Positions 1,817 to 28,389 of a DNA stretch of 43,069 bases are shown here, piece after piece. The notes under the pieces were generated by a model. It saw only the letters and a program-made list of their open reading frames with translations. It did no database searches and had not been told where the DNA came from. This DNA comes from Desulfobacteraceae bacterium (lineage in GTDB: Bacteria > Desulfobacterota > Desulfobacteria > Desulfobacterales > JAABTS01), in NCBI GenBank assembly GCA_011389735.1, contig JAABTS010000030.1:1-43069 (forward strand), written 5' to 3'. The translations under genes and the position numbers were made by a program. Each line of letters starts with the position of its first letter. Positions within the stretch are counted from its first letter, which is position 1.

Positions 1817-1820
1817 TCCT

Positions 1821-1949
1821 ATGAAATCCGACAGGAAACATTGCACAAGGGTTTTGAACGTCGATTTAAGGCGGGTTTCACGCCTTGCGGTAGGGAAAAT
1901 CTACCGGGGAATACGTTCAGCGCCCTATTGCGTTGTTGAAAACAGGTAA
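1821..1949 (+). CDS. Small basic ORF (42 aa) between rsmH and ftsL
   Basis: An ATG four bases after the rsmH stop opens a 42-codon frame ending in TAA at 1947-1949, three bases before the ftsL ATG. The frame fills the gap almost exactly. The predicted peptide starts MKSDRKHCTRVLNVDLRRVS, is rich in Arg/Lys and has no membrane segment. A purine-rich GGAG lies about 13 bases upstream, inside rsmH. I do not recognise a family. The tight tiling argues for a translated small gene, but it could be chance, or a leader coupling translation of ftsL. Confidence 0.5.
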   Translation: MKSDRKHCTRVLNVDLRRVSRLAVGKIYRGIRSAPYCVVENR

Positions 1950-1952
1950 GAT

Positions 1953-5495: not shown

Positions 5496-5498
5496 ACG

Positions 5499-6578
5499 AT
5501 GCTGTATCATTTACTGTTTCCATTATATAAAACCATATCGGCGTTCAACGTATTCCGGTACATTACGTTCCGGACTATTTACGCGGGTATCACGGCGTTT
5601 TTAATCCTGTTTATTTTCGGGCCGCGTATGATCCGGCTGCTTCGGCGAATGCAAATCGGACAGCATATTCGTGAAGACGGTCCGGAAGCGCATTTGAAGA
5701 AAGCAGGCACGCCGACGATGGGCGGAACCTTGATTATTTTGTCCCTCACGGTTTCAGTATTGTTGTGGCTTGATTTAACCCAACCTTATGTGTGGATTCT
5801 TCTGCTTGTGACTGTCGGATACGGCGTTATCGGGTTTATAGACGATTATCTAAAGGTGGTCAAAAAGCGGAATCTGGGGCTCAGAGTCAAGGAAAAGCTG
5901 TTTTTCCAGGCGATCATCGCGCTCGCCGCAGGCGCGTTGATTTATATAACCCCCGGATTCAACACGCATTTGACCATACCGTTTTTCAAACAACTATCCC
6001 CGGATCTAGGCTGGGGATATATTTTTTTCGCGGCGCTGGTAATTATGGGAACATCGAACGCGGTCAATCTGACCGACGGACTTGACGGTCTGGCCACGGG
6101 GCCTGTGGTGGTGGTGGCTGTCACGTACATGGTGTTCGCCTATGCCGCAGGACACGTCAAAATCGCCGAATACCTTCAAATCCCCTTTGTGGCGGGATGC
6201 GGGGAGTTGACCATTTTCTGCGGTATTCTTGCCGGGGCGGGATTGGGATTTTTATGGTTCAACACATACCCGGCTCAGGTGTTCATGGGCGATGTGGGAT
6301 CTCTGTCTCTGGGCGGGGCGATCGGATGCGTAGCGGTGATCACCAAGCAGGAAGTTTTGCTGGTGGTGGCCGGAGGGCTTTTTGTGATGGAAACCCTGTC
6401 GGTCATCGCCCAGGTGGTTTTTTTTAAAATGACCAACGGAAAACGGATCTTCAGGATGGCGCCGATTCATCATCATTTTGAATTAAAAGGCTGGCCGGAA
6501 CCGAAAGTGATCGTCAGGTTTTGGATTATCGCCATTATGCTGGGCCTGGTGGCCATCAGCACGTTGAAAATCAGGTGA
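5499..6578 (+). CDS. mraY: Phospho-N-acetylmuramoyl-pentapeptide-transferase MraY
   Basis: This polytopic membrane enzyme of 359 residues transfers phospho-MurNAc-pentapeptide to undecaprenyl phosphate to make lipid I. Visible family motifs are [10 protein letters not shown] near residue 67, the FIDDYLKV catalytic aspartate pair near 110, [13 protein letters not shown] near 188, and the C-terminal [17 protein letters not shown] block with the conserved histidine run. About ten hydrophobic helices can be traced. It starts three bases after murF. Confidence 0.97.
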
Positions 6579-6584
6579 TCGGAC

Positions 6585-7907
6585 ATGGAGATGCTTGAAG
6601 GGAAATCGGTTCTGATTGTCGGGCTGGGGAAATCCGGGGCCGCGGCGGCTCGTTTTTGCCGTCGTAGAGGCGCGACCGTCCGGGTGTCCGACGCCGACGC
6701 CGGACCGGAAATGGAGCAAAAGGCCGTTGAACTCGAGCAAGAAGGCGTTTGCGTGGAATTAGGGCCGCACCATGAAAGCACGTTTGTGAACAACGATTTG
6801 ATCGTTGTCAGCCCCGGAGTTCCAATCACCCTTCCTGCGCTGATACAGGCTCAACAGCAAGGCGTGCGGATGATCGGCGAAATCGAACTGGCCGCTGGTT
6901 TTATCGATTCGCCCATCGTGGCGATTACCGGAACGAATGGAAAATCCACGACGACCGAGCTGGCCGGGAAAATGATCGAAGCCTCCGGTATTACAGTTTT
7001 CGTGGGCGGAAATATCGGAAACCCTCTGATTGAATATGCGGACAGCGGGGACCGGGCCGATGTGGCGGTGGTAGAAATCAGCAGTTTTCAGCTCGACACC
7101 ATCGATTGCTTCCGGCCCAGGGTGTCGGCGCTGTTGAATATCACCGAAGATCATCTCGACAGATACGCTGATTTCAACGCATATGCGGAAAGCAAGCTTA
7201 GAATTTTCGAAAATCAGACGTCCGATGATTACGCAGTATTGAACCTGTCAGATCCTTTTGTCGCCGATTTGACAAAAGATATTCTCCCCCGGCGACTGAA
7301 TATCCGGCAATTTGAACAGGAAATAGAACAATGGTTTTCAAAGCCGGGGTTCGGCGCGGCGTTTGCCAATCCGCCGTTGCCGGGCGCGCATAACTATGAC
7401 AACATTGCAGCGGCGGCTCTGGCGAGCGCCGTGGCAGGGGCGACTCCGGAAGGGATATCGAGGGGCCTGGAAAATTTCAAGGGCCTTCGCCATCGTATGG
7501 AATACGTCGGCGAAAAGCGAGGGGTCGAATTTTATGATGATTCCAAGGCCACCAACCTCGACGCCGCCCGGAAAGCCGTTGAATCGTTCGATTCCCCGGT
7601 GGTTTTGATCATGGGCGGCCGCGGAAAGGGCTACCGTTTTGACGGTTTGCAGGACACGGTGAAAAACCGGGTGAAACGGCTGGTTTTGATGGGAGAGACC
7701 CGGCGTGAAATAGCCGAAGCCCTGAGCGGGGTTTGCAAGGGAGGCCATATCATGGCCGACACAATGGAACGGGCGGTTTCATATGCGTTTGAATCGGCCG
7801 AACCCGGCGATGTCGTTCTGCTGGCTCCAGCTTGCGCAGGTTTTGACATGTTTTCGGGATACGCCGAACGAGGAGATCGATTCAATGAAGCCTTTCGGAA
7901 ACTTTAG
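6585..7907 (+). CDS. murD: UDP-N-acetylmuramoylalanine--D-glutamate ligase MurD
   Basis: This 440-residue cytoplasmic ligase adds D-Glu to UDP-MurNAc-L-Ala. The N-terminal Rossmann-like domain starts with GKSVLIVGLGKSGAA. The ATP loop GTNGKST lies at 116-122. The central domain shows VVEISSFQLD and LLNITEDHLDRY, and the C-terminal domain shows KATNLDAA and the final SPG-type glycine-rich stretch GFDMFSGYAERG. It begins seven bases after mraY. Two ATGs lie close together (6585 and 6591); the first is used here. Confidence 0.96.
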   Translation: MEMLEGKSVLIVGLGKSGAAAARFCRRRGATVRVSDADAGPEMEQKAVELEQEGVCVELGPHHESTFVNNDLIVVSPGVPITLPALIQAQQQGVRMIGEIELAAGFIDSPIVAITGTNGKSTTTELAGKMIEASGITVFVGGNIGNPLIEYADSGDRADVAVVEISSFQLDTIDCFRPRVSALLNITEDHLDRYADFNAYAESKLRIFENQTSDDYAVLNLSDPFVADLTKDILPRRLNIRQFEQEIEQWFSKPGFGAAFANPPLPGAHNYDNIAAAALASAVAGATPEGISRGLENFKGLRHRMEYVGEKRGVEFYDDSKATNLDAARKAVESFDSPVVLIMGGRGKGYRFDGLQDTVKNRVKRLVLMGETRREIAEALSGVCKGGHIMADTMERAVSYAFESAEPGDVVLLAPACAGFDMFSGYAERGDRFNEAFRKL

Positions 7908-7919
7908 GATAGTACGGAA

Positions 7920-9056
7920 ATGAGGATACGGAATCAAATCGTGTCGGTCGTAAAAGAATCGAATTCACATTATGATGTGACGATGCTGTTTTCCGTTCTG
8001 TTTCTGGTGGGGATCGGCATCGTCATGGTTTATAGCGCCAGTTCGGCTCTGGCTCTGAAAAAATTCGGGACAAGCTATTTCTTTCTCCGGAAACAACTGC
8101 TCTTTTCCCTGATCGGAATCGGCGCGCTTGTGGCGTGCCGGCATTTTCCCTTGCAATGGCTGAGGGTTTTCGTATATCCGTTTTTGGGCGTCGCTCTGCT
8201 GTTGTTGCTGACGATCCAGATCAGCAATTTCAAAATGACCGCCGGCGGGGCGTCTAGATGGGTGAACATCGGCGGATTCACGTTTCAGCCGTCGGAGCTG
8301 ACCAGGCTTGCGGTCATTATCTACCTGGCGTATTCACTTGACAAAAAATCCGATCGAATTCAAGAGTTTGCAATTGGGTTTATGCCTCATTTCCTGGTTT
8401 TGTGCCTGTTTTCCGCCTTGATTCTCAGCCAGCCGGATTTCGGGTCGGCCGTTATTTTAGCCGCGATTACCTGGGGGATGATGTTCGCCGCGGGCGTTCC
8501 CTTGAAATATCTTTTGACCACAGCAGCCGCGGCGGTTCCTGCGATCTATTACCTGTTGTCCACCTCGTCTTATCGTATGGAAAGGATTCTTAGCTTTTTA
8601 GATCCCTGGAAATACGCAACAAATGAAGGATATCAGATTATTCATTCCCTGATGGCTTTCGGTTCGGGGGGCGTTTGGGGAACAGGCATCGGCAAAGGAT
8701 ACCAGAAATTGTTTTATCTTCCGGAACCGCACACGGATTTCATTTTTTCGGTTATCGGGGAGGAGCTTGGGCTTTTGGGCGTTCTGGTGATTCTGACGCT
8801 TTATTGCATCATCGTTTGGAAAGGTGTGGCCATCGCTCTTGAAGCCGAAAGCGGGTTTTTGACGCTCCTGGGATTCGGCCTGACCATTTCCATCGGTCTT
8901 CAAGTGCTGATCAATATCGGCGTTTGTCTTGCGATCCTGCCGACAAAAGGGTTGACGCTTCCCTTGATCAGCTACGGGGGGACTTCCCTGGTTTTAAACA
9001 TGGCGGCCATCGGGTTGTTGATGAATATACGGACACGGAACAAGTATGAACCTTGA
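7920..9056 (+). CDS. ftsW: Lipid II polymerase FtsW
   Basis: This 378-residue SEDS-family glycosyltransferase polymerises septal peptidoglycan with FtsI. About ten membrane helices are visible. Family motifs are VMVYSASSALA near residue 38, GGASRWVNIGGFTFQPSEL near residue 110 (with the QPSE block), SQPDFGSAVI near 168, GYQIIHSLMAFGSGG.WG.G.G..YQK near 240, HTDFIFSVIGEELG, and the C-terminal GLTLPLISYGGTSL. The murG reading frame starts 11 bases before the ftsW stop. Confidence 0.96.
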   Translation: MRIRNQIVSVVKESNSHYDVTMLFSVLFLVGIGIVMVYSASSALALKKFGTSYFFLRKQLLFSLIGIGALVACRHFPLQWLRVFVYPFLGVALLLLLTIQISNFKMTAGGASRWVNIGGFTFQPSELTRLAVIIYLAYSLDKKSDRIQEFAIGFMPHFLVLCLFSALILSQPDFGSAVILAAITWGMMFAAGVPLKYLLTTAAAAVPAIYYLLSTSSYRMERILSFLDPWKYATNEGYQIIHSLMAFGSGGVWGTGIGKGYQKLFYLPEPHTDFIFSVIGEELGLLGVLVILTLYCIIVWKGVAIALEAESGFLTLLGFGLTISIGLQVLINIGVCLAILPTKGLTLPLISYGGTSLVLNMAAIGLLMNIRTRNKYEP

Positions 9057-10188
9057 GAGATTGCATATCGTGATCACCGGAGGGGGCACCGGGGGCCATT
9101 TATTCCCGGGCGTGGCCGTTGCGGACGCCTTTGTCGAATCTAATCCGGACAACCGGATCATTTTTATAGGAACTGGAAACGCATTTGAAACCAGGGTTCT
9201 GTCCGGGAAAGGGTATGAGTACGATACGATTCCGTCCGAAGGATTGATAAGCCGGGGCGTGGGCAGGCAGATCGTTTCACTGGCTAAAATTCCGTTGGGT
9301 GTCGTCCGCGCTGTTTCTATTTTAAGACGGTTCAAGCCGGACATGGTTATCGGAATGGGAGGTTATTCGGCGGGACCGGTCATTTCGGCGGCCCGGATGA
9401 TGGGAACCGGCACGGCGATCCACGAACAAAACGTTATTCCAGGCGTCACAAATCGTTTGGCGGCGTATTTTGTGGATTTGATTTTTCTTTCCCTGTCCGA
9501 AACCAGGTCTTATTGGAGAACCCCGGGGGTCAACATCAAAAAAATGCGGATTACCGGAAACCCCATACGAAAAGATATTATTGAACATGCGCATGCGCCT
9601 CGAAGCTCTAAAGACCGGTTCAACGTATTGATTGTGGGGGGGAGCCAGGGCGCTCACGGAATCAATACGGCGATAGCAAATTGTCTTCCTTTGCTGGAGA
9701 AAAAAGAGGCGTATCGGTTTGTGCATTTGACGGGCGAGGCGGATTTCGAACAAATCAAAGCCGCGTATGAACGATCCGGAACGGAATCAAAAGTAAGCCC
9801 GTTTTCAAATGATATGGCCAAAGAATACAAGGACGCGGATTTGATCATTTGCAGGGCGGGAGCCACGACGCTGGCGGAAGTTTCCGTCATGGGCAAAGGC
9901 GTGATTTTCATTCCGTTTCCATATGCGACCCATCAACATCAGGTATTGAACGCGCAGACTCTGGTCAACGCCGGCGCGGCTGAAATGATTCTTCAGAAGG
10001 AACTTTCAGGACGCAGGCTTGCCGAACGGATTCATTTTTATCTAACCCATCCGCAACGTTTGCAAAAAATGGGAGAGCTTGCGAAATCACGGGCGAATCC
10101 GGATGCAGCGAAAACGATCGTCAGGTTGACTCAGGAGTTGATCGGTCAAAAAAGGCGTATAAACCGCCGGAACCCGGCATTGAGGTAA
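9046..10188 (+). CDS. murG: UDP-N-acetylglucosamine--N-acetylmuramyl-(pentapeptide) pyrophosphoryl-undecaprenol GlcNAc transferase MurG
   Basis: This 380-residue GT28 glycosyltransferase makes lipid II on the inner face of the membrane. The N-terminal glycine-rich loop GGGTGGHLFPGVAVA (near residues 12-26) contacts lipid I. GMGGYSAGPV and HEQNVIPGVTNR follow. The C-terminal domain shows VGGSQGAHGIN and the UDP-sugar-binding ICRAGATTLAEVSVMGKGVIFIPFPYATHQHQ region. It overlaps ftsW by 11 bases and runs into murC with one base between. Confidence 0.96.
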   Translation: MNLERLHIVITGGGTGGHLFPGVAVADAFVESNPDNRIIFIGTGNAFETRVLSGKGYEYDTIPSEGLISRGVGRQIVSLAKIPLGVVRAVSILRRFKPDMVIGMGGYSAGPVISAARMMGTGTAIHEQNVIPGVTNRLAAYFVDLIFLSLSETRSYWRTPGVNIKKMRITGNPIRKDIIEHAHAPRSSKDRFNVLIVGGSQGAHGINTAIANCLPLLEKKEAYRFVHLTGEADFEQIKAAYERSGTESKVSPFSNDMAKEYKDADLIICRAGATTLAEVSVMGKGVIFIPFPYATHQHQVLNAQTLVNAGAAEMILQKELSGRRLAERIHFYLTHPQRLQKMGELAKSRANPDAAKTIVRLTQELIGQKRRINRRNPALR

Positions 10189-10189
10189 G

Positions 10190-11566
10190 ATGTATAGAAA
10201 AAAATATCATATTCATTTTGTGGGCGTGGGCGGGATCGGCATGAGCGGTATCGCCGAGCTGTTATTGAACCTTGGATACAAGGTGTCCGGATCGGATTTG
10301 AAAACTTCGGATATCACCGAACGGCTCGTATCTCTCGGGGGAACCATTCATGAAGGCCATGATGAAACCAGCGCCTACGGAGCCGATGTAGTGGTTACGT
10401 CTTCGGCTGTGGGGCCGGACAATCCTGAAGTGGCCTATGCGCGTCAAGCCTCTGTTCCGGTTATTCCCAGAGCTGAAATGCTGGCTGAATTGATGCGGTT
10501 GAAATACAGCGTGGCGATCGCCGGGGCCCACGGCAAGACCACCACAACTTCTCTGGTTGCCTCCGTTCTTGCGGCCGGCGGACTGGACCCCACCCTGGTC
10601 ATCGGCGGCAAAATCAAGAGCATCGGATCGAATGCGATTCTCGGCAAAGGCGATTTTATCGTGGCGGAAGCGGACGAAAGCGACGGATCGTTTCTGAAAA
10701 TGTCGCCGACGATTGCGGTCGTCACCAATATCGACCGGGAACACATGGATTATTATCAGGATATGGAAGATATTCGGAATTCGTTTCTCCGTTTTCTGGA
10801 TCGAATTCCGTTTTACGGTCTGGCGGTGCTGTGTTTGGATAATGAGGCCTTGCAGGATTTGATCCCCAGGATCGGAAAACGGTTTATCACCTATGGCGTC
10901 AGTTCCCAGGCGGATCTTCAGGCGAAAAACGTCGAATTCGACAAATTGCAAAGCCGTTACACCGTACACCGGGAGGGCGAAGCGCTCGGCGGAATCAGTC
11001 TCAACCTGCCGGGAATGCACAATGTTTTTAATTCGCTCGCCGCAGTGGCGGTGGGACTTGAACTGGATATTCCGTTCGAAAAAATTCAAAACGCGCTTGA
11101 AACGGTTGAAGGCGTGCAGCGGCGGATGGAAGTGAAAGGCGAAATCAACGGAATAACCGTGATCGACGACTACGGTCATCATCCCACGGAAATCAAAGCG
11201 ACCCTGGAAGCGATCCGGGAAAGCCGGCCCAATCGTCGTTTGGTGGTTTTGTTCCAACCGCATCGATATTCCCGAACGAAAGCTCTTTTTGACGACTTTA
11301 CAAGGTCGTTTTATCAAACCGATACGCTGGTGGTGCTTCCCATATACGCGGCCGGCGAATCCCATATCGAGGGGCCCGACAGCCGGGATCTGGTCAAAGG
11401 CGTCAAGGAACACGGCCACAAACATACGGTTTATATCGAAGATTTCGACAAAACGATTACATACTTAAAAGGCGAGCTGAAACCCGGCGACATCGTATTG
11501 ACGTTAGGCGCCGGAAATGTGGTCCGGTTGGGAGAATTGTTTTTAAAATCAATGGAATCATGTTGA
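10190..11566 (+). CDS. murC: UDP-N-acetylmuramate--L-alanine ligase MurC
   Basis: This 458-residue Mur ligase adds the first L-Ala to UDP-MurNAc. It starts with HIHFVGVGGIGMSGIAELL, the MurC signature that distinguishes it from MurD/E/F. The ATP loop GAHGKTT lies at 112-118. EADESDGSFL (near 163), NIDREHMDYY and DDYGHHPTEIKATL (near 325) are all typical. The gene begins two bases after the murG stop. Confidence 0.97.
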   Translation: MYRKKYHIHFVGVGGIGMSGIAELLLNLGYKVSGSDLKTSDITERLVSLGGTIHEGHDETSAYGADVVVTSSAVGPDNPEVAYARQASVPVIPRAEMLAELMRLKYSVAIAGAHGKTTTTSLVASVLAAGGLDPTLVIGGKIKSIGSNAILGKGDFIVAEADESDGSFLKMSPTIAVVTNIDREHMDYYQDMEDIRNSFLRFLDRIPFYGLAVLCLDNEALQDLIPRIGKRFITYGVSSQADLQAKNVEFDKLQSRYTVHREGEALGGISLNLPGMHNVFNSLAAVAVGLELDIPFEKIQNALETVEGVQRRMEVKGEINGITVIDDYGHHPTEIKATLEAIRESRPNRRLVVLFQPHRYSRTKALFDDFTRSFYQTDTLVVLPIYAAGESHIEGPDSRDLVKGVKEHGHKHTVYIEDFDKTITYLKGELKPGDIVLTLGAGNVVRLGELFLKSMESC

Positions 11567-11567
11567 C

Positions 11568-12557
11568 ATGAAGCCTAAAAAAGGCCGCTCCGACAAGAAG
11601 TTCCAATTAAGCCCGGATATCCGGAAACGGTTGACGAAACGGTTTCCGGATACGATGGTTTTTGATGAACCGATGAGCCGTCATACGTCGTTCCGAATCG
11701 GCGGTCCGGCCGATATTTGGGCGGCTCCAAAAACGGTCGATGACCTTAAAAGGCTTTTGGCGAATTTCACCGGGATGGAAATTCCATTCATGGTCATTGG
11801 CAAAGGCACGAATCTGCTGGTTTCGGAAAGCGGGATCAGAGGTGCGGCGGTTTCACTTAGCCGCCTGTCCGGAGTCATTGAAAAGAGAGACATCGGGCCG
11901 GGCCTCGCGATAGTGGCCGCTCCCTCCGGAATGCGGCTCGCATCCTTATGCTCGTTTGCCCTTTCCGAAGGTCTCGCCGGAATGAATCAGGTTCTCGGTG
12001 TTCCCGGGTCGGTCGGAGGGGCTGTACGGATGAACGCCGGAACTAATCTGGGGGATATCGGTATGGCGACCGATTCCGTGGACGTTCTTTTGCCCGGCGG
12101 GGATTTAAAAACCTTTGACCGGCGGTCGATCCGCCCCGGTTACAGGCGGCTTGACATCATTGATGGAGACAGGCCGATCCGCCTTGACCGCTCGCCGGTC
12201 ATCCGAGCCCGGTTCAGGCTTGCAAGCGGGGATCGCGATGCGCTGAGGGCTCTGGCTAGAGGAATTGTTTTGAAACGTAAGGCGTCGCAGCCTCTTGGAG
12301 TTCGAAGCGCCGGATGTATTTTTCGGAATCCGTCTTCGGATCAACCGGCCGGGAGACTGATAGACCAATTGGGGCTTAAAGGGAAAAGCTTCGGAGATGC
12401 TCAAATTTCAACGGTTCACGCTAATTTTATCGTCAACAGGGGCGACGCTTCGGCGTCCGATATTTTAAAACTTATCGGTATGGTAAAGGAAGCCGTTTAC
12501 AATGCCTTTGGGATTACATTGGAAACAGAGGTCCAAATTGTTGGCGAAACATCCTAA
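11568..12557 (+). CDS. murB: UDP-N-acetylenolpyruvoylglucosamine reductase MurB
   Basis: This 329-residue FAD enzyme reduces UDP-GlcNAc-enolpyruvate to UDP-MurNAc with NADPH. HTSFRIGGPADIW (near residue 40), VIGKGTNLLVSESGIRG and LGVPGSVGGAVRMNAG are FAD-domain motifs. The active-site block reads SAGCIFRNP, with Cys where E. coli MurB has the proton-donor Ser, a substitution also seen in other type II MurB proteins. It follows murC by one base. ddl, often encoded near here, is missing. Confidence 0.95.
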   Translation: MKPKKGRSDKKFQLSPDIRKRLTKRFPDTMVFDEPMSRHTSFRIGGPADIWAAPKTVDDLKRLLANFTGMEIPFMVIGKGTNLLVSESGIRGAAVSLSRLSGVIEKRDIGPGLAIVAAPSGMRLASLCSFALSEGLAGMNQVLGVPGSVGGAVRMNAGTNLGDIGMATDSVDVLLPGGDLKTFDRRSIRPGYRRLDIIDGDRPIRLDRSPVIRARFRLASGDRDALRALARGIVLKRKASQPLGVRSAGCIFRNPSSDQPAGRLIDQLGLKGKSFGDAQISTVHANFIVNRGDASASDILKLIGMVKEAVYNAFGITLETEVQIVGETS

Positions 12558-13416
12558 AAGACGGCGCCGTACTCAACGGAATCCGTTCCCCAAACGGAAA
12601 GAATTGTCTCCGGTCGGTAAAGCGTGTGTGTCCGCCCTCTACGGAGCCGTTTTTGTATCGCTGGTCAGCTATGGTTATCTATTTTCATACAGCTTTTTGA
12701 CCACTTGCGACCACTTTGACGTGACTGAGATCGATATAACAGGAAACCACCGTATTTCCGACCGGGAAATCAAAGATATGGCTCAAATTCATATAGGGAA
12801 AAATGTTCTTTCGCTGAATATGGCGAAAGTTCGAAAGCGGCTAATGGCGGACCCCTGGATTGTGGAAGCGGAGGTGAGCCGGGAGCTTCCCGATAAAATG
12901 CATATACGCATCCGCGAAAACGAGCCTTTGGCGGTGCTTGATCTGGGAAGAAAATTCCTGATCAACCTGGACGGTGAAATATTTAAGGAATGGCGACCGA
13001 AAGATCCGGCGGATCTTCCTCTGGTCACCGGCCTTCTGTTTTCGGATATTAACGTATCCGGCAAGCCCAGATCAAAAATTTTCAACGCCGTAATGGAGTT
13101 GCTGCATGTGGGAAGAGACCCGTCATGCGTACTGGGAAACGACATGATCAAGGTTATCGAGGTGGATCGTGAAATGGGGCTGACCGTCCACGCCCCCGGA
13201 TATGAAGCCGGCAGAATCGGCGCAATCAAGCTAGGATATAATAATTATCAAGGCAAATACGAACGGTTGAAAAATGTTGTTTACTATTTGAAAAAAAACC
13301 GTTTTAATGAGTTTTTTGAAACGATTGATTTGAATAATATCGACCGGATTGTTTTAAACCCCATTGAAACCGATTTCGGCGCCGCCCATGTTGCGGGAAA
13401 ACGTTCGGATTTATAA
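12541..13416 (+). CDS. ftsQ: Cell division protein FtsQ
   Basis: FtsQ is a bitopic membrane protein linking early and late divisome proteins. A basic cytoplasmic tail (AKHPKRRRRTQRNPFPKRK) precedes a membrane helix over roughly residues 30-52 and a periplasmic POTRA domain (VTEIDITGNHRISDREI to IRIRENEPLAVL). The FtsQ beta domain then ends in NNIDRIVLNPIETDFG. I chose TTG 12541, which has GAGGT at 12528-12532 eight bases upstream. An in-frame ATG at 12502 would add 13 residues and overlap murB by 56 bases, with a less well placed AAGGA. The start is therefore uncertain, the gene is not. Confidence 0.9.
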   Translation: MAKHPKRRRRTQRNPFPKRKELSPVGKACVSALYGAVFVSLVSYGYLFSYSFLTTCDHFDVTEIDITGNHRISDREIKDMAQIHIGKNVLSLNMAKVRKRLMADPWIVEAEVSRELPDKMHIRIRENEPLAVLDLGRKFLINLDGEIFKEWRPKDPADLPLVTGLLFSDINVSGKPRSKIFNAVMELLHVGRDPSCVLGNDMIKVIEVDREMGLTVHAPGYEAGRIGAIKLGYNNYQGKYERLKNVVYYLKKNRFNEFFETIDLNNIDRIVLNPIETDFGAAHVAGKRSDL

Positions 13417-13552
13417 AACGCCGTAAGAATTTTCATACACGATTTTTCAAAAGCCAGGGCGGTAAAAAATCCGTTCAATGTCGGAGCATGATGATCGTAA
13501 TCATTGAAAAGCCGTCAAAAAGTTAGGGAATAGCAATTAGGAGTCTTGAAAA
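13417..13552 (+). other. 136-bp gap between ftsQ and ftsA
   Basis: This is the first substantial gap inside the cluster after the small-ORF region at 1821-1949. It has no gene-sized frame. Near 13489-13507 there is a short ATGAT/ATCAT inverted repeat. The stretch ends with the AGGAG ribosome binding site of ftsA (13539-13543). An internal promoter for ftsAZ would fit here, but I see no clear -35/-10 pair. Confidence 0.4.
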
Positions 13553-14773
13553 GTGCAGGAAGAAATAATCGTAGGGCTGGATATCGGGACAACGAAAATA
13601 TGTTGTGTTGTCGGTGAGGTCTCCGGCAACGAAATCAACATTATCGGCGTCGGAAAGCATCCGTCCGTGGGATTGAGAAAAGGGGTCGTCGTAAACATTG
13701 AATCGACGGTCCAATCGATCAAGAAAGCGGTTGAAGATGCGGAATTGATGGCGGGTTGCGAAATTACGTCCGCCTATGTCGGAATCGCCGGAGGGCATGT
13801 GTCGGGATTCAACAGCCGGGGCATCGTTGCCATCAAGGGAAATGAAATCCGGCGGCATGACGTGGAAAGGGTTCAGGACGCCGCCCGAGCCGTAGCGATT
13901 CCAATGGACCGGGAGGTCATCCATGTGTTGCCCCAGGAATATATTGTGGACGACCAGTTCGGAATCATGGATCCTATCGGCATGTCCGGAGTGAGGCTGG
14001 AAGCCAAAGTGCATATCGTCACCGGCGCCGTCACATCGGCCAACAATCTCATTAAATGCACCAACCAGGCGGGATTGGACGTGTGTGATATCGTTCTGGA
14101 GTCACTGGCTTCCGGAGAAACGGTTCTGGCGGACGAAGAAAAGGAACTTGGCGCCGCACTGATCGATTTGGGCGGAGGAACTACGGATCTGGCGATATTT
14201 GCCGGTAAAAACATTAAACATACATTTGTTCTCGCCCTGGGCGGCCATAATTTGACCAACGATATCGCTATCGGTTTGAGAGCGCCTATCGGCGATGCGG
14301 AAGCGATCAAAAAGCAATTCGGGACTTGTTTGTTCGAAAATGTGGGGCCCGAGGAAATTATCGAAGTTCCGGGCATGGGCGGCCGGAAATCTCGGAAATT
14401 GAGCCGTCAGATTCTGGCTGAAATTTTGGAGCCGCGTATGGAGGAAATATTCACGCTGGTCCGGCGGGAAATTTATCGCGCCGGCATGGAAAACGTTATG
14501 GCCTCCGGGCTTGTGCTGACCGGCGGTTCCTCATTGCTTGACGGGGTTACGGAGATCGCCGAATCAGTTTTCAATCTGCCGACTCGACTGGGCAAGCCGA
14601 CAGGTATCGGAGGGCTCGTGGACGTGGTGAACAATCCGATCTATTCAACCGGAGTCGGACTCGTTTTATGGGGCGCAAAGAATCAGGCTCAAAAAAAATT
14701 TAGGATCAGAGATTCCAATATTTTCAATCGGATATTGGATCGAATGAAAAAATGGTTCAAAGATATTATTTGA
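13553..14773 (+). CDS. ftsA: Cell division protein FtsA
   Basis: This 406-residue actin-like ATPase tethers FtsZ to the membrane. The GTG start lies nine bases after AGGAG. Phosphate-1 motif [16 protein letters not shown] is at residues 7-22. The 1C subdomain follows ([13 protein letters not shown] onward). The phosphate-2 block [15 protein letters not shown] lies near 203 and the adenosine block [14 protein letters not shown] near 322. The last 20 residues ([19 protein letters not shown]) form the amphipathic membrane-binding helix. It is followed by ftsZ as usual. Confidence 0.97.
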
Positions 14774-14798
14774 AATTCAAAATAAAATAAGGTATAAA
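14770..14798 (+). promoter_or_regulatory. Sigma-70-type promoter upstream of ftsZ
   Basis: TTGAAA at 14770-14775, a 17-base spacer, then TATAAA at 14793-14798. It overlaps the ftsA stop codon and lies 30 bases before the ftsZ ATG. It would give ftsZ an extra, dedicated transcription start, as known for ftsZ in other bacteria. Confidence 0.65.
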
Positions 14799-14828
14799 CC
14801 CGAAGTCGTAACGCAAGGAGGTGGGTTA

Positions 14829-15989
14829 ATGTTCAGCTATGTGGAAAACGGTGAAAAGTCAGCAAAAATTAAAGTGATCGGCGTTGGCGGCGCCGGTGGA
14901 AACGCCATCAACAACATGATCGATTCAAACCTGTCGGGAGTGAACTTCATTGCCGCCAATACGGATGTTCAAGCCCTTGATATTTCCAAGGCGCCGGTCA
15001 AAATTCAAATCGGCGACAAATTGACCGAAGGATTGGGAGCGGGGGCCAACCCCCAAATCGGAAGGGAAGCCGCGATTGAAAGCGCAGAACAGATCCGGAA
15101 TGCATTGAAAGACAGCCATATGGTCTTTATAACGGCCGGATTCGGCGGCGGCACCGGCACCGGGTCGGCGTCCGTAATCGCGGATATCTGTAAGGAACTG
15201 GGCGCTCTGACTGTCGGCGTCGTAACACGGCCCTTTTCTTTTGAAGGCCGAAAAAGGGCGCGACAGGCCGAAGAAGGGATCGAGCAGTTAAAAGAGGTGG
15301 CGGACACGGTGATTACAATCCCCAATGACAGGCTTCGAGGCCTGGCGTCGAAAAACGCCACCATGCTCGAAATGTTCAGAAAAGCCGACGAAGTGCTCTT
15401 ACATTCGGTCAAGGGGATCACGGATCTTATTTTAATGCCCGGTCTGGTCAACCTCGATTTCGCCGACGTTAAAACAACTATGCTTAAAGCAGGCATGGCC
15501 ATCATGGGAATCGGTGTCGCCAGCGGGGAAAATCGCGCTGTCGAAGCCGCTGAGCGGGCTATTTCCCATCCGCTGCTTGAAGACGTGTCCATCTCCGGAG
15601 CAAAGGGCGTTCTAATGAACATTACCAGCACGAGCGACCTTACAATGGAAGAAATGACCGAAGCTTCCGAGCGGATTTACAGCGAAGTCGGCGAAGACGC
15701 GGATATTATCTGGGGGGCCGTCATCGATGAAAGCCTGGGCGATGAAATGAGGGTGACCGTTATCGCCACCGGAATCGGGTCCATGGCCGAAACCGAAGCG
15801 CCTCAACGCCGGGGAGGAAATGTCCGCCGAATGAAACGATTCGAACGGCCGGATTATGATGCGCCTGAAGCTCCCAAAAAAGACAGGGGCCATACGGAAG
15901 AATACCGGGAAGCCGCCTATGAGCGGGAAATGGAAGTTGACGGTGGAGATCTCGATATTCCCACCTTTTTGAGGCGGAAAGCGGATTAG
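14829..15989 (+). CDS. ftsZ: Cell division protein FtsZ
   Basis: This 386-residue tubulin-like GTPase forms the Z ring. [11 protein letters not shown] near residue 20, the tubulin signature GGGTGTG at 106-112, the NxDxA-like DFADVKTTM block near 210, and GATGVLMNI-like [11 protein letters not shown] near 258 are all present. A variable charged linker (about 325-370) leads to the C-terminal peptide [13 protein letters not shown], which binds FtsA and other partners. Translation signals are very strong: AAGGAGGTGG at 14816-14825 ends three bases before the ATG. Confidence 0.98.
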
Positions 15990-21596: not shown

Positions 21597-22361
21597 TCAG
21601 TTTATGGAATCGGCCAGGATTCCTTTTTTGCGAAGGCGTGTTTTAAGTCTCACCAGGGCTCCTGAATGTAATTGCGATACACGCGATTCCGACAGTTCCA
21701 GCACCTCGCCGATTTCTTTCATGGTCAATTCGTTCCAGTAGTAAAGCGAAATCACCAGCTTTTCTTTTTCCGGAAGGTTTCGAATCGTGTCGGCGACTGC
21801 TGTTTCGACTTCCTTGATTCGCGTCATCTCATAAGCGTCTTCGGCCGTTCCATGAACCAAACAGCCGAAGGCGATGTTTTTTTGTTCCCTCGATGAAATC
21901 CCGATTTCCTCGAAGCTCAAGAACGAAATCCCGGCCATGCGCTTGATTTCATAGTAGGAGTTTAAATCGATTTCCATCATCTGAGCAACTTCTTCGTCTT
22001 CCGGCTGTCTCCCCAGTTCGTTTTCCAGTTTAAGGTAGGCGTTTTCCAGATCCCGGCTTTTTTTTCGATCAGATCGGGAAAGATAATCTCTTGACCTTAG
22101 TTCCCCTAAAATAGCGCCTCTAATCTTAAAAGTGGCGTATGTGAGGAATGTATTCGGCTTTGTGGGGTCATATCGGTCGATTGCGGCGATCAGTCCGATA
22201 ACGCCTGCATTGATGAGGTCGTTGCGGTCGACGGAACCGGGAAGGTTCGCCGCAATTCGATTGACCATGCGTTTGACATAGGGGAGATATTCGAGAACCC
22301 TTCCCCGTTTGACATTCTGATCCGAAGTATAACTTTCAATCGCTTTTCTCGCCCTGGTCAT
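21597..22361 (-). CDS. fliA: RNA polymerase sigma factor FliA (sigma-28)
   Basis: This 254-residue sigma-70-family protein directs late flagellar transcription. Region 2 reads YLPYVKRMVNRIAANLPGSVDRNDLINAGVIGLIAAIDRYDP and TFLTYATFKIRGAILGELR. Region 3 follows (about 95-150). Region 4 reads LPEKEKLVISLYYWNELTMKEIGEVLELSESRVSQLHSGA. This compact three-region layout without region 1.1 is typical of FliA. The gene lies in a flhA-flhF-flhG-fliA order common in bacteria with polar flagella. Confidence 0.94.
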   Translation of the reverse strand: MTRARKAIESYTSDQNVKRGRVLEYLPYVKRMVNRIAANLPGSVDRNDLINAGVIGLIAAIDRYDPTKPNTFLTYATFKIRGAILGELRSRDYLSRSDRKKSRDLENAYLKLENELGRQPEDEEVAQMMEIDLNSYYEIKRMAGISFLSFEEIGISSREQKNIAFGCLVHGTAEDAYEMTRIKEVETAVADTIRNLPEKEKLVISLYYWNELTMKEIGEVLELSESRVSQLHSGALVRLKTRLRKKGILADSIN

Positions 22362-22413
22362 GATTTTGCAAGATTGTCTTGTTCGATTTGGGAATACGGC
22401 TTGAAACCGAATT

Positions 22414-23316
22414 TTAATCCTGAGACAAGGTGGCCCATAATGATCCGAAATCCCTTTGTTTTAGTTCAAAACCGCTTGAATACATCAGTCGCTTGGCGAG
22501 CGCCGAATAACACCGGCTGGCTCTCGAATCCGGAAACAGCTCGCTGACGACTTTTTGTAACCGTACGCATTTATTTATGTTTTCATCATATAAAACGCAT
22601 CCCAGATGTTCCAGGGTAACGGACAGGAAACGGGCGGCGACCAGCTTCAATTGCCGGAACACTTCATAGGCTTCGCGCATACTCTCCGCCGGATTGACCA
22701 GTATGTAAAAGTCTTTTACGGAATACTTGAGGGACAGAACTTTCATCAAAGCGTAGGCGTCCGTTATGGCGGTAGGTTCCGGAGACACCACGATAATGAC
22801 TTCCTTTGCGATCACACTGAAATAAATTACGTTGGAAGAAATACCGGCGGCGGTGTCGATCAACAGAACATCCACGGGATTGCTGACCACGTCCAGTTCC
22901 ATGAGAATACGCAATTGCTGGTCTCTGGACAGGTTGGTCAGTTCCTGAACTCCGGATGACGCCGGGAGGATTTTCATGTTGGCGGGGCCGTCGATCATCA
23001 CTTCCTCGATGGTTTTTCGGCCGGTGATTACATGAGACAGATTATATGCGGGCGTTAGTCCCAGAAGAACGTCAAGGTTTCCCAGACCCAGATCGGCGTC
23101 CAGAATGATGGTCTTTTTTCCCATCCGGCTCAACGCATACCCGAGGTTGGCGACAATGTTGGTTTTGCCGACGCCGCCTTTACCGCTTGCAATGGCGATA
23201 ATCCTCGGAGGCGGCTTGAACCGGTTTTTGTGTTCTTTTCCACCGTATTTTCCGGCTCCGGCGTGATCTAAATGAACAACCTTGGAAGCATAATTTTTAT
23301 CATTGAATTTTTCCAT
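22414..23316 (-). CDS. flhG: Flagellar number regulator FlhG/FleN (MinD-like ATPase)
   Basis: This 300-residue ParA/MinD-type ATPase has the deviant Walker A KGGVGKTN near residues 46-53 and LDADLGLGNLDVLLGL with the switch aspartate. LIDTAAGISSNVIYF and VVSPEPTAITDAYALMKVL follow. FlhG limits flagellar number and works with FlhF. The N-terminal tail before the ATPase domain is about 35 residues, long enough for the short FlhF-activating segment known in this family. It lies between flhF (16-base gap) and fliA. Confidence 0.93.
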   Translation of the reverse strand: MEKFNDKNYASKVVHLDHAGAGKYGGKEHKNRFKPPPRIIAIASGKGGVGKTNIVANLGYALSRMGKKTIILDADLGLGNLDVLLGLTPAYNLSHVITGRKTIEEVMIDGPANMKILPASSGVQELTNLSRDQQLRILMELDVVSNPVDVLLIDTAAGISSNVIYFSVIAKEVIIVVSPEPTAITDAYALMKVLSLKYSVKDFYILVNPAESMREAYEVFRQLKLVAARFLSVTLEHLGCVLYDENINKCVRLQKVVSELFPDSRASRCYSALAKRLMYSSGFELKQRDFGSLWATLSQD

Positions 23317-23332
23317 AAATTTCCCTGACGTC

Positions 23333-24760
23333 TTAAACGGCTATCTGTTTTTGATGTGGCGTTGTCTGGATTTCCGGGACCGGATCGACGTTTGCTCCTC
23401 TGGCGCAGCAATGTTTACATGGTTTGAAATGCTGTGCGACCGCTTCGTGGCGACTTTTAAATTCTATCCGGTTGTCGGCGCTTATCTTCGCGGCGCAACG
23501 GCATTCGGCGGTATGGTATATATCCGAATTGCTGTTGGCGACATAGGTTTTCCGCTTAACGGAAACGGGAATTGGCGCCGGTTCAGGTTCCGGAGACGTT
23601 GGGGCTTCGATCAGCAATGTATCGCCGGCCGGAAGGATCAATTCGGCGAGCAGTTCCGTTTCCGCCGGTTTCAAATCTTCAGGAATCCTCTGCCCGGTCG
23701 TCAAATAGGACACCGGCAGACCGGAACGGCATAATTGACTGATTAGAGCCCCGTAGGCGTCCGTTTCATCGATTTTGGTGTAAAGCAGTGAATTGACGGC
23801 AAGCGGTTCAAACCCCCGGCGAATGATTTCAAAATCGGCGTCGCGTGTGGATGCGCCGACAACAAGCTGGGTGGATCGATGTTTGATCACCGAAAGGATG
23901 TTTCCCAGCCGTTCGATTTTTTCCTTGTTTTTGGGGGACACGCCGGGGGTGTCCACAAGCACCAGATCATCCGGCCGCGTCGAGGCCACGGCTTTTCGAA
24001 GTTCTTCCCGGGACGACGCTGAATAGAAGGACACGCCGATGACTCCCGCGTAGCGCCGCATCTGATCGACGGCCCCGATACGATCATGATCCAGGGTGAT
24101 CACTGAAACCGGTTCCCCTTTCCGGCGGTTGTGAATTGCAGCCAGCTTTGCGATGGTTATGGTCTTGCCGACGCCCGTGGGGCCGGTCATAACAATGATC
24201 CTGCGTTTGTCACGGTTCGATTCGATGGGCGCAGCCTGAACGCCGGCCGCCTCGAACGCGCTTACGAGATGTTTTCGTAAATCATGATCGCTCGTTTTGG
24301 AGTTGTATGCATCCTTTCCGGAAACCCGTTCGATCAGCTCGGCGGCGACCGCCGCCTCCATACCGTGGGCGATCAACCGCTTTTTTAAGAGGTGGGCGCA
24401 TCGAGACCCGTTCGGAGGTTTGACGGCGGGCTTTACGCTGTTCTCATAGCCGTTGGACTTGACGGTTTTATGAAACGAGGGTGTGAAATAAACATCCGAT
24501 GTTTTCTGAGCGCTTTCCTTTTTATTGTCCTGATTGCGGTTTCCGTTTGTCTCCGGCGGAGGCGTGATCCGTTTTTGACCGTAACCCTGCCGGTATATAT
24601 CCGTGGCCGCAGTGACGACGACCCCCGCCCTGCGAAAAAAACGCCTCCATCCGTCGTTTTTTTTCGATGCGGACAGAATGACCGCATTGGGCCCGAATTC
24701 CTCTTTGATCATTTGCAACGCTTCATTCAGATCGTTTGCTTCAAATCGTTTAATTTGCAT
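23333..24760 (-). CDS. flhF: Flagellar GTPase FlhF with extra C-terminal Ada-like metal-binding module
   Basis: This 475-residue SRP-type GTPase places flagella and interacts with FlhG. The N-terminal domain starts with QIKRFEANDLNEALQMIKEE, followed by a low-complexity linker (60-115). The NG domain has the P-loop GPTGVGKT at 193-200 and VDTPGVSPKN in G3. After about residue 400 there is a further Cys/His block (405-452). It contains YVANSNSDIYH, Cys420, Cys422, FKSRHEAVA and PCKHC with Cys448 and Cys451, like the metal-binding domain of Ada. The start overlaps flhA by 11 bases. Confidence 0.92.
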   Translation of the reverse strand: MQIKRFEANDLNEALQMIKEEFGPNAVILSASKKNDGWRRFFRRAGVVVTAATDIYRQGYGQKRITPPPETNGNRNQDNKKESAQKTSDVYFTPSFHKTVKSNGYENSVKPAVKPPNGSRCAHLLKKRLIAHGMEAAVAAELIERVSGKDAYNSKTSDHDLRKHLVSAFEAAGVQAAPIESNRDKRRIIVMTGPTGVGKTITIAKLAAIHNRRKGEPVSVITLDHDRIGAVDQMRRYAGVIGVSFYSASSREELRKAVASTRPDDLVLVDTPGVSPKNKEKIERLGNILSVIKHRSTQLVVGASTRDADFEIIRRGFEPLAVNSLLYTKIDETDAYGALISQLCRSGLPVSYLTTGQRIPEDLKPAETELLAELILPAGDTLLIEAPTSPEPEPAPIPVSVKRKTYVANSNSDIYHTAECRCAAKISADNRIEFKSRHEAVAQHFKPCKHCCARGANVDPVPEIQTTPHQKQIAV

Positions 24761-26852
24761 TGGACGTCCCCACGCTGCCTAAAGGCTGAATTTTGATGTT
24801 GCTTACAATTTCGTTATACGACAATACCGTCAAGTCCGGGATAAACCGTTCCACAAGTCTTTTCAGATGAGGCCGGATCGTTGCGGAACACACCACGAGA
24901 GGCTGTTGTTTCAAAGGCCCGAATCGTTCAATATTCCCGGCGATGTTTCGAATGATCGCTTGCGCTATGTTGGGCTCGATCGGCATTACATCGCCCTTGT
25001 CCGAATGCCTGAGCGCTTCGGATATCACCTGTTCCACGCTTTGATCGACCGTCAGCGCCGGAATGCTTCCTTCCGGAGTTTTATAAAGGTTGGTGATGGT
25101 TCTGGCCAGGGATTGGCGAACATATTCGGTGAGTATGTCCACATCCTTGACGGCCGGAGCCCAGTCGGCCAGAGTTTCCAGTATGGTCACCAGATCCCTC
25201 ACCGGCACCTGCTCTTTGAGCAGATTTCGAAGCACCTTGCCTACGCCTCCGATGGTCATCAGGTTCGGCACGAGTTCATCGACCACGGCGGAATGCGTTT
25301 CTTTCAAATTGTCCAAAAGCCTTCTCACTTCCTGCCGCCCCAACAGCTCATCAGCGTTTCTGCGGATAATGTCCGATAGATGCGTGATCAGAACCGTCGG
25401 CGTGTCCACGACAGTGAACCCCTGAGAAAGCGCTTTTTCCTTTTCTTTTTCCTTGATCCAATAAGCCGGAAGGTTGTATGTGGGCTCCCGAGTCGCCACC
25501 CCGTCTATTTTTTCAGCCGCGGATTCAAGATTCATGGCCAGAAAATGATTGGGCATGAGTTCGCTTCCGGCGATCCGGTTTCCTTTAAGATAAATCACGT
25601 ATTCGCCGGATTTCAACCGAATATTGTCCTGAATATGAATCGGCGGAACGACGATCCCGATTTCCTCGCCGATCTGCTTTCTGATATGCCGGATACGTTC
25701 CAGCAGTTCTCCGTTTTGTTCAGCATCGACAAATGGAATCAAACCGTATCCGACTTCAAGGGACAGAGCGTCCAACGGCGGTATCGGCTGTTCGGAACGG
25801 ATCGATGCGGGGCGCGCTTTTTCTTTGGCCGCCTGCTCTTCTTTTTCAAGCCGGAGATCTTCCCTCTGGGCCTTGAATAAATAGTAAGCCGCGACACCGG
25901 TGATAAACGACAGGGCCAGAAAAGGAATAGTGGGAAGTCCCGGCACCAGACCCATGAATAGAAGAACAGCCGCGGCAATGGCTATGGCTCTGGGTTGATA
26001 TAAAAGCTGGGATGTGATTTCCCCGCCCAGCCCGGATTCGGAACCGGCCCGGGTCACCACGATACCGGCCGAGGCAGCCACGATAAGCGCCGGTATTTGA
26101 GTCACGAGACCGTCCCCGATCGTCAGCAGCGTATAGGTTTTGGCCGCGTTCGAAAAAGTCATGCCGTTTTGGAATACCCCGATAAACAATCCGCCGATAA
26201 TATTGATCAGCGTAATGATAATTCCGGCGATCGCATCGCCCTTGACAAATTTGTTGGCGCCGTCCATGGCTCCGTAATATTCGGCTTCCCGGGCGATAAT
26301 CCGGCGCCTTGACATGGCCTCCCGGTCATCGATAAATCCGGCGTTCAGATCCGCATCGATACTCATTTGCTTGCCCGGCATGGCGTCCAGGGTAAATCTG
26401 GCGGCCACCTCCGCAATTCGTCCCGCGCCTTTTGTAATAACCACAAAATTGACGATAATTAGAATTAAAAAAACTATGGCCCCGACCACATAATTGCCGC
26501 CCACAACGAAATTGCCGAAGGCGTTGATCACTTTGCCGGCGGCGAGTGTGCCCTGGCCGCCGTTCAACAGGATAATCCGGGTCGATGAAATATTAAGGGA
26601 CAGTCTGAACAGTGTCACGATCAGCAAAATGGACGGAAAAGCGGACAAATCCAGCGGCCTGTTTAAATACATGGCGACCAGGAGAATCACCAGGGAAAAT
26701 GTAATATTGAAAGACAACAGCAAATCCAGCAAGACCGTAGGCAACGGCAAAACCATCAGCACCAGAATGCATACGACGCTCACGGCCATGATGATGTCGC
26801 TGTTGGCGAACAATGTCGGAAATTGCTTTGAAAATCTTGTCGGATGTTCCAT
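24750..26852 (-). CDS. flhA: Flagellar export gate protein FlhA
   Basis: This 700-residue protein forms the nonameric export gate of the flagellar type III secretion system. The N-terminal half (about 20-330) has eight hydrophobic helices with family blocks NRPLDLSAFPSILLIVTLFRL, the FHIPEP-like region around RFTLDAMPGKQMSIDADLNAG, and GDGLVTQIPALIVAASAGIVVTRA. The C-terminal half is the soluble chaperone-binding domain, including VPPIHIQDN and LIREQVPVRDL-like LLKEQVPVRDLVTILETLADW. No good Shine-Dalgarno site precedes ATG 26852. A family A repeat starts 46 bases upstream. flhB and fliPQR are not adjacent. Confidence 0.96.
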   Translation of the reverse strand: MEHPTRFSKQFPTLFANSDIIMAVSVVCILVLMVLPLPTVLLDLLLSFNITFSLVILLVAMYLNRPLDLSAFPSILLIVTLFRLSLNISSTRIILLNGGQGTLAAGKVINAFGNFVVGGNYVVGAIVFLILIIVNFVVITKGAGRIAEVAARFTLDAMPGKQMSIDADLNAGFIDDREAMSRRRIIAREAEYYGAMDGANKFVKGDAIAGIIITLINIIGGLFIGVFQNGMTFSNAAKTYTLLTIGDGLVTQIPALIVAASAGIVVTRAGSESGLGGEITSQLLYQPRAIAIAAAVLLFMGLVPGLPTIPFLALSFITGVAAYYLFKAQREDLRLEKEEQAAKEKARPASIRSEQPIPPLDALSLEVGYGLIPFVDAEQNGELLERIRHIRKQIGEEIGIVVPPIHIQDNIRLKSGEYVIYLKGNRIAGSELMPNHFLAMNLESAAEKIDGVATREPTYNLPAYWIKEKEKEKALSQGFTVVDTPTVLITHLSDIIRRNADELLGRQEVRRLLDNLKETHSAVVDELVPNLMTIGGVGKVLRNLLKEQVPVRDLVTILETLADWAPAVKDVDILTEYVRQSLARTITNLYKTPEGSIPALTVDQSVEQVISEALRHSDKGDVMPIEPNIAQAIIRNIAGNIERFGPLKQQPLVVCSATIRPHLKRLVERFIPDLTVLSYNEIVSNIKIQPLGSVGTSNAN

Positions 26853-26897
26853 AAATCAGGCTACGCACACCAATAAAATTACAGGTTTTCAGATTTT

Positions 26898-27011
26898 GTA
26901 TTTAGCGGCTGAACGAAAACCTCCTATCGCTCCCAGGGGATTTACAATCACAGCCTGCCACGATAGGCGACACGCGGGTTACAAACCCGCTCAGAGCCGT
27001 ATTTTGAGACT
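26898..27011 (-). repeat. Family A dispersed repeat, copy 3
   Basis: Reverse orientation relative to copies 1 and 2. It has the same blocks: GGCTGAACGAAAACC, CGCTCCCAGGGG, GCCTGCCACGA and the hairpin GCGGGTTACAAACCCGC. It lies just upstream of flhA, so it may sit in or next to its leader or promoter region. Confidence 0.75.
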
Positions 27012-27052
27012 TTTTGTTCACGCGCTATTTAAAAAAAAGACCAATACTTGGT

Positions 27053-27219
27053 GGGCTTGGTTCTATCTTCGCCCATTTTCATTTATCGGGATCGGTATCG
27101 GGATCGGTATCGGTATCGGGATCGAAACTGAATCCTTCGATAACGATCCCGATCCCGATTTGGATTCAAAAACTTCAAGCCCAATCACTAAACTGATGGC
27201 CGAAGTTAGAACCAATCCC
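27053..27219 (+). repeat. Family C nested inverted repeat, copy C2
   Basis: Outer arms are GGGCTTGGTTCTATCTTCG at 27053 and GGCCGAAGTTAGAACCAA near 27198-27215. The interior holds a short-period tract of GGGATCGGTATC-type units (27086-27124) answered by CGATCCCGATCCCGAT near 27143-27158, forming an inner hairpin. The copy separates the beta-subunit gene at 27259 from flhA. Confidence 0.75.
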
Positions 27220-27258
27220 GAAATATACCTGAAAAGCCATTGTTTATCGTCAGTAGCC

Positions 27259-28389
27259 TCAGCGGGTCATAAACGTCCACAATATGCCCGCCCCGATGGC
27301 CGATCCGATAACTCCCGAAACATTCGGCGCCATCGCATGCATCAAGAGAAAATTCGTGGGATCTTCTTTTTGGCCGACCATTTGCACCACTCTTGCGGAA
27401 TCCGGAACCGCTGAAACTCCAGCCGCGCCAAGCAACGGATTGATCTTCTGTTTTAAAAACAGGTTCATGATTTTCGCAAAAATCAAACCCGATGCGGTCG
27501 CTATGGCAAAGGACAAGGCGCCGAGGATAAAAATTTTGATCGATTCCCAGGTCAGAAATCGATTCGCCTGGGTGCTGGCCCCGACGGTTAATCCCAGAAG
27601 AATCGTGACCGTATCGATAATCGACGTCCTGGCCGCCAGCGCAAGACGATCCGTAACAGTACATTCCTTTAAAAGATTTCCGAAAAAAAGCATCCCCAGT
27701 AATGGCAGGGCCGCAGGAGCCAGCAAACAGCAAAGAAGAAATCCAATGATGGGAAAGATGATTTTTTCGCGTTTCGACACCACCCTGGGTTCTTCCATTT
27801 TGATCAACCGTTCTTCGCGGGTGGTCAATAATTTCATGATCGGCGGCTGGATCACCGGAACCAGCGCCATATATGAATAAGCGGCTACGGCGATGGGGCC
27901 GATCAGATCCTTTGCGAGTTGCGCTGTCAGAAAGATTGCCGTAGGGCCGTCGGCGCCGCCGATGATTCCTATGGACGCCGCTTCATTGGGAGCGAATCCC
28001 AGGGCCAGCGCTCCCAGGAAGGTTATGAATATGCCCATTTGAGCCGCTGCTCCGAGCCACATGAGCAACGGACGCGCCAGCATGGTTGAAAAGTCCGTCA
28101 TGGCGCCGATGCCCAGGAAGATCAGGGGAGGGTAAACGCCTTGAGTGACCCCGAAATACAGATAATGAAGAACACTGTTGTCCTCATAGATTCCCAACCC
28201 CAACCCCTGAAAAACAGGTATGTTGCCGACCAGGATACCGAAACCGATGGGTACGAGCAACAAAGGTTCATAGTGTTTTACGATTCCTAGATAAATGAAC
28301 ACTAAACCGATGACCATCATGACCAGATTCCGGTAATCCATGAGGGCGAACCCGGTGTTATTGATAAAGTCCATTATGAGGTTGATCAT
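27259..28389 (-). CDS. Sodium-pump decarboxylase beta subunit (OadB/GcdB/MmdB family)
   Basis: This 376-residue polytopic membrane protein of the Na+-translocating decarboxylase beta-subunit family couples decarboxylation of a carboxybiotin to Na+ export. Conserved blocks are QGVYPPLIFLGIGAMTDFSTMLA (near 84), the Asp-containing GIIGGADGPTAIF near 144, and the C-terminal GAAGVSAVPDSARVVQ and HAMAPNVSGVIGSAIGAGI. AAGGAG lies about ten bases upstream of the ATG. The substrate (oxaloacetate, methylmalonyl-CoA or glutaconyl-CoA) cannot be told from this subunit. The carboxyltransferase and biotin carrier genes are not in the window. Confidence 0.93.
   Translation of the reverse strand: MINLIMDFINNTGFALMDYRNLVMMVIGLVFIYLGIVKHYEPLLLVPIGFGILVGNIPVFQGLGLGIYEDNSVLHYLYFGVTQGVYPPLIFLGIGAMTDFSTMLARPLLMWLGAAAQMGIFITFLGALALGFAPNEAASIGIIGGADGPTAIFLTAQLAKDLIGPIAVAAYSYMALVPVIQPPIMKLLTTREERLIKMEEPRVVSKREKIIFPIIGFLLCCLLAPAALPLLGMLFFGNLLKECTVTDRLALAARTSIIDTVTILLGLTVGASTQANRFLTWESIKIFILGALSFAIATASGLIFAKIMNLFLKQKINPLLGAAGVSAVPDSARVVQMVGQKEDPTNFLLMHAMAPNVSGVIGSAIGAGILWTFMTR

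Follow-up and report, generated by a model that had tools for sequence, protein, structure and literature searches.

The flhF locus and the layout of its product

The window (the whole stretch of DNA that was analysed, 43,069 nucleotides) carries genes in the order flhA-flhF-flhG-fliA, which is that of the usual flagellar operon, with flhG directly downstream of flhF:

24750-26852, minus strand: flhA, upstream of flhF in the operon (TIGR01398, 906.6 bits)
23333-24760, minus strand: flhF, 475 aa, an SRP-type GTPase with an added C-terminal domain
22414-23316, minus strand: flhG, a MinD-like ATPase of 300 aa, assigned by a MinD-family match and by its place directly after flhF, without DQAxxLR
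21597-22361, minus strand: fliA, flagellar sigma factor (TIGR02479, 234.5 bits)

FlhF was recognised by the NCBIfam FlhF model TIGR03499 (182.7 bits, cut-off 174.15), whose match covers residues 1-273, and its SRP54 GTPase domain extends over residues 188-376 (E 1.3e-34). It is the single FlhF above the cut-off in its own genome, where no second one was found. A dcw-type cluster of division and cell-wall genes (window 878-15989, up to ftsZ) lies near the flagellar cluster (21597-26852). A plus-strand ORF at 26494-27414, which overlaps the 5' end of flhA with its start, contains a run of GIGIGIGIGIGIG; at the DNA level, this run is a short tandem repeat lying upstream of flhA.

The protein can be divided as follows:

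24593-24760, minus strand: first part of the FlhF B-domain (residues 1-56), modelled as ordered by AF2 and the best conserved portion of the protein in the tailed clade (mean identity 0.62)
23633-24412, minus strand: NG domain, residues 117-376, with G3 = DTPG at residues 270-273
23552-23632, minus strand: linker, residues 377-403, unconserved and mostly predicted disordered
23402-23551, minus strand: predicted Ada-type metal-binding tail domain, residues 404-453, assigned by PF02805, PDB profile and fold match, conserved in 51 FlhF

Residues 1-56 correspond to the FliG interaction domain described in PMC11236974. The linker is conserved neither in length nor in sequence among tailed FlhF (mean identity 0.09), and its residues 383-402 have a pLDDT below 50 in the AF2 monomer model. 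Only about 22 residues follow the tail domain in that model; they are predicted to be disordered and include no helix-turn-helix.

An Ada-type domain at the C-terminus of FlhF

The initial annotation had proposed that FlhF ends in an Ada-like metal-binding domain, and this proposal is strongly supported by a family profile, by a profile search of the PDB and by a fold match. The tails do match an Ada-type zinc domain, PF02805 (Ada_Zn_binding): all 11 tails first aligned were matched at E up to 1, with a best value of 1.9e-11, while the window tail alone reached 15.5-20.2 bits against a gathering cut-off of 23 (E 0.0021 and 18.5 bits in one run). A profile built from the 11 tails gave four matches only in the PDB (E up to 10), all of them the N-domain of E. 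coli Ada, with a best E of 2.2e-6. The AlphaFold model of the tail (31 sequences), predicted without metal, had a pLDDT near 90 across its ordered part, and Foldseek found four credible PDB matches for it, all Ada, the top two with a probability of 1.00. Moreover, the window tail scored 78.3 bits against a profile of 30 relatives from which the window was excluded, the best of 5000 shuffles scoring 13.4. As judged from these profiles and from the predicted structure, the FlhF tail is a real, separately folded domain of the Ada N-domain type. Searches of open-access papers yielded no account of an FlhF with a zinc or Ada domain.

Seven of the 11 tails also matched NCBIfam NF051437, the 'sunset' domain (best E 4.2e-7), the window tail alone falling below the cut-off. 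This domain is listed by NCBIfam on variants of ribosomal proteins L4, L17, L20 and S2, and no description of it was found in open-access papers.

Predicted metal ligands and chemistry of the tail

Nine residues are invariant in the alignment of 31 tailed FlhF (A408, S412, H416, C420, I426, F434, A440, C448 and C451), and they include the predicted ligands:

23513-23515, minus strand: His416, predicted metal ligand at the Ada Cys38 position, invariant in 31 tails
23501-23503, minus strand: Cys420, predicted metal ligand at the Ada Cys42 position, invariant in 31 tails
23417-23419, minus strand: Cys448, predicted metal ligand at the Ada Cys69 position, invariant in 31 tails
23408-23410, minus strand: Cys451, predicted metal ligand at the Ada Cys72 position, invariant in 31 tails

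The cysteines C420, C422, C448 and C451 had been correctly numbered in the initial annotation, and three of them hold as candidate ligands, C420, C448 and C451 being conserved; C422 is not conserved among tailed FlhF and was rejected, whereas H416 had been missed. The Cys/His set itself is conserved in the FlhF of related species. Because of the invariance pattern across the 31 tailed FlhF, which excludes C422, the metal set is likely His-Cys-Cys-Cys (H416, C420, C448, C451), and the metal that such a set would hold is probably zinc.

Cys38 is the methyl acceptor of Ada. Its position is occupied by His in every FlhF tail, and the tail therefore cannot perform methyl-acceptor chemistry; a structural zinc site is the reading that suits it best. 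Repair of DNA alkyl or methyl-phosphotriester damage by the tail was rejected, since the acceptor is replaced and no helix-turn-helix follows the domain. Two Asn of the tail, N409 and N411, are nearly invariant, and the net charge of the tails has a median of +3 and a range of -2 to +8.

Distribution and history of the tail

Tailed FlhF were found in ten genomes besides the window when 58 genomes were searched (its own and 57 others of the same order). In a scan of named genomes, 30 tailed FlhF were present among the best 80 loci, and the organism titles of their hosts were Desulfobacterales, Desulfobacteraceae, Desulfosarcina, Desulfatibacillum, an Olavius-associated delta symbiont and unresolved Deltaproteobacteria; among the same 80 loci, no tail was found on FlhF of Bacillota, Nitrospirota or Planctomycetota. 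The cultured Desulfosarcina widdelii also has a tailed FlhF. In a phylum-wide survey, the best tail matches lay on FlhF-length frames, four of those from two families outside the order; the FlhF profile used there includes the tail and so flags short tail-only proteins, and only the rows of 477-496 aa are FlhF. The 51 tailed FlhF sampled, from a set in which many genomes are metagenome assemblies, are spread over many families of the order and over the two families outside it, and form essentially one clade.

Indeed, in a tree of the FlhF core without the tail (105 proteins), the 51 tailed proteins and eight untailed rows form one group (SH-aLRT 94), and tail presence requires eight changes on that tree versus about 35 for shuffled labels, many inner branches being weak and only three changes being forced by strongly supported branches. 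One of the untailed rows, L184, ends at a contig edge and was not counted as a loss. The tail was sought in all frames after the seven other tail-less members and was found in none, so that a frameshift was rejected as the cause of its absence. One gain followed by several losses is the simplest reading of this distribution. One tailed FlhF (L010, contig C255 of genome G008) has a single in-frame TAG stop within the matched stretch.

Elsewhere in the phylum, most copies of the domain either terminate thermonuclease-like proteins or belong to small proteins whose N-termini are signal-like, with a few further copies on TPR, permease (LptF-like) or other proteins in the phylum-wide survey; it thus seems that FlhF acquired a mobile domain which is frequent in its phylum. 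One thermonuclease-like protein with this Ada-type domain at its end (L001, 790-1626) is encoded on contig C52 of the window's own genome, and the pairing is common in the phylum. An LptF/LptG-like permease (L151) bears the domain at its C-terminus.

Such company could suggest an Ada-like binding of nucleic acid by the tail, through which FlhF would be connected with DNA or RNA. Kinship with the DNA-binding N-domain of Ada, the fact that in this phylum the domain occurs most often on a staphylococcal-type nuclease, and the positive median charge of the tails all point in this direction. Nevertheless, the Cys38 acceptor position is His, no helix-turn-helix comes after the tail and its charge varies down to negative values, and we consider this role unlikely, if the least unlikely of the alternatives to the reading that we prefer.

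Changes in the GTPase and in FlhG

The conservation of FlhF is uneven along its length. In the N-terminal domain, mean identity reaches 0.62 for the tailed clade versus 0.45 for untailed FlhF; in the G domain, it is 0.36 for the tailed clade versus 0.54 for untailed FlhF of the same order and 0.47 for other phyla. Within the same ten proteins, the tail (identity 0.447) exceeds the G domain (0.383), which suggests that the tail is under purifying selection. The N-terminal domain and the tail are thus more conserved than the G domain, and selection would hold both ends of FlhF more than the GTPase between them, although an older origin or a higher rate of evolution could account for part of the low G-domain identity in the tailed clade.

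The GTPase motifs are altered as well. G3 is mostly DTPG in tailed FlhF (Pro in 44 of 51) versus DTAG in untailed FlhF (Ala in 15 of 17 from the same order and in 40 of 45 others), and Arg227 of G2 is missing in 9 of 51 tailed versus none of 62 untailed proteins. The P-loop lysine and the Asp of G4 are kept in all FlhF compared. In Desulfosarcina-type FlhF (e.g., L091, L085 and L078), G2 and G4 drift further, with for example FTHLDE in place of FTKLDE, a hint that the GTPase of some tailed-clade members is weakened.

FlhF is normally activated by a DQAxxLR helix of FlhG, the Gln of which is co-catalytic (PMC12826062; PMC11236974), and published work presents the pair as a conserved switch with this motif on the FlhG side (PMC12826062). 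DQAxxLR is absent from the whole FlhG of the window. In the gene directly downstream of flhF, it was found in none of the 51 tailed and none of the seven tail-less clade members (0/58). Beyond this clade, 56 of 62 such genes have it, among them the ones that follow the flhF genes of all 17 untailed proteins from the same order. Within the tailed clade, it was not found inside FlhF either. The following segment occupies its place in the window:

23188-23316, minus strand: FlhG residues 1-43, preceding the P-loop; a KVVHL-type motif stands here in the place of the DQAxxLR of other FlhG

Most FlhG of the clade likewise have a short KVISL-type motif about 33 residues before the P-loop (median 33.5), a value for which only the typical distance, and not the count, was used, the search pattern being loose and able to catch the strand before the P-loop. 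A backup FlhG with the enhancer motif was sought in the own genome and rejected: the nearest relative of the window FlhG there also lacks DQAxxLR. This relative (L192, 1252-2337, contig C132), which shares 38% identity with the window FlhG, is a MinD/FlhG-like ATPase with a J-domain-like segment (MDLKACYDILEIEKGASLQEIKQAYRDLIRVWHPDRF) fused at its N-terminus, and it adjoins a pentapeptide-repeat-like protein.

Taken at the level of sequence, the FlhF/FlhG switch seems to have been rewired in the tailed lineage, a change of the whole pair that the initial annotation had not noticed. The tail could then be regarded as an intramolecular substitute for the FlhG enhancer helix, folding back on the FlhF dimer and giving the catalytic help of the Gln of DQAxxLR. 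The loss of the enhancer motif from FlhG in the very clade that has the tail, the nearly invariant N409 and N411 and the alteration of G3 would agree with this. However, the seven tail-less members also have an FlhG without the motif, so that the tail is not strictly needed there, and the linker, unconserved in sequence and length, is disordered in the AF2 monomer model; a simple replacement of the helix by the tail is argued against by these members, and we judge it quite improbable. Since the tail, FlhG and G3 traits change on about one branch, which amounts to about one event, their functional link is proposed as a hypothesis.

Possible functions of the tail

The initial annotation had envisaged that the tail responds to metal or redox conditions and thereby influences where flagella are placed, or else that it contacts another polar protein. 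Sensing could be favoured by a thiolate-rich site with three Cys and by hosts whose names suggest relatives of anaerobic sulfate reducers. However, an invariant His-Cys-Cys-Cys set within an invariant hydrophobic frame is the pattern of a structural zinc site, and the presence of the domain on secreted nucleases, TPR proteins and others is better explained by a general binding module; sensing appears unsupported and more doubtful still than substitution for the helix, and partner docking is the more plausible role. Least probable of all, and very much so, is a gene-fusion leftover of little function, which the seven clade members without a tail might evoke but which fits poorly with nine residues invariant across 31 divergent proteins and with a tail identity above that of the GTPase domain.

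The best explanation, which we hold with about as much belief as doubt, is that FlhF of this lineage bears a structural metal tail (probably zinc) on a flexible linker, that the switch has been rewired, and that FlhF acts mainly as a tether whose tail docks a lineage-specific partner. In Shewanella, FlhF connects FliG, held by its N-terminal domain, with HubP, a pole protein held by its NG domain (PMC11236974), and the GTPase of FlhF is stimulated there by DQAxxLR of FlhG (PMC11236974; PMC12826062). By this explanation, the tail would fold separately, held on a disordered linker of about 20 residues; the N-terminal domain would still hold FliG, and FlhF, with its core GTP-binding residues retained, would keep GTP binding. 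The zinc tail might then dock onto a partner peculiar to the lineage (the altered FlhG, or else a factor of the pole or the membrane) and so take over part of the work done in other bacteria by the NG domain and the FlhG enhancer helix, while FlhG-stimulated GTP hydrolysis would have been lost. A stronger form, which we put forward only tentatively and think rather less probable, is a lineage-wide replacement in which the zinc docking tail and a new N-terminal motif of FlhG would stand in for enhancer-helix control, leaving the GTPase to GTP binding or unstimulated turnover.

A lineage-wide exception in FlhF/FlhG, together with a predicted metal-binding domain, offers a natural experiment to tell which components of the switch flagellar placement requires, and the tail is a concrete module to mutate. 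It also places an Ada-type metal domain on a cytoplasmic protein outside DNA repair. If the rewired reading is true, a widespread flagellar placement switch has been rebuilt in one sulfate-reducer-type lineage.

Comparison with known systems

The tail shares with the Ada N-domain (PF02805; E. coli Ada, PDB 1adn, 1u8b, 1zgw and 1wpk) its predicted fold and four ligand positions in the same order (H416/C38, C420/C42, C448/C69 and C451/C72). It differs by His in place of Cys38, by the missing start of the domain (the match covers profile positions 16-63 of 65), by the lack of a following helix-turn-helix and by its host, which is a GTPase. The thermonuclease-like and small secreted proteins of the phylum (e.g., L001) have a C-terminal domain with the same H-x3-C and P-C-x2-C pattern; by contrast, they mostly have signal-like N-termini, hence are probably exported, and they have no GTPase. 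The 'sunset' domain, matched by seven of the 11 tails, differs in being a short model of 42 positions, for which the window tail alone stays below the cut-off. Finally, like the FlhF of Shewanella, Pseudomonas and Bacillus (B-N-G), the window FlhF has B, N and G domains, a P-loop and an operon position beside flhG, but it adds a predicted zinc-type domain at the C-terminus, has DTPG for DTAG, and is paired with an FlhG that lacks DQAxxLR.
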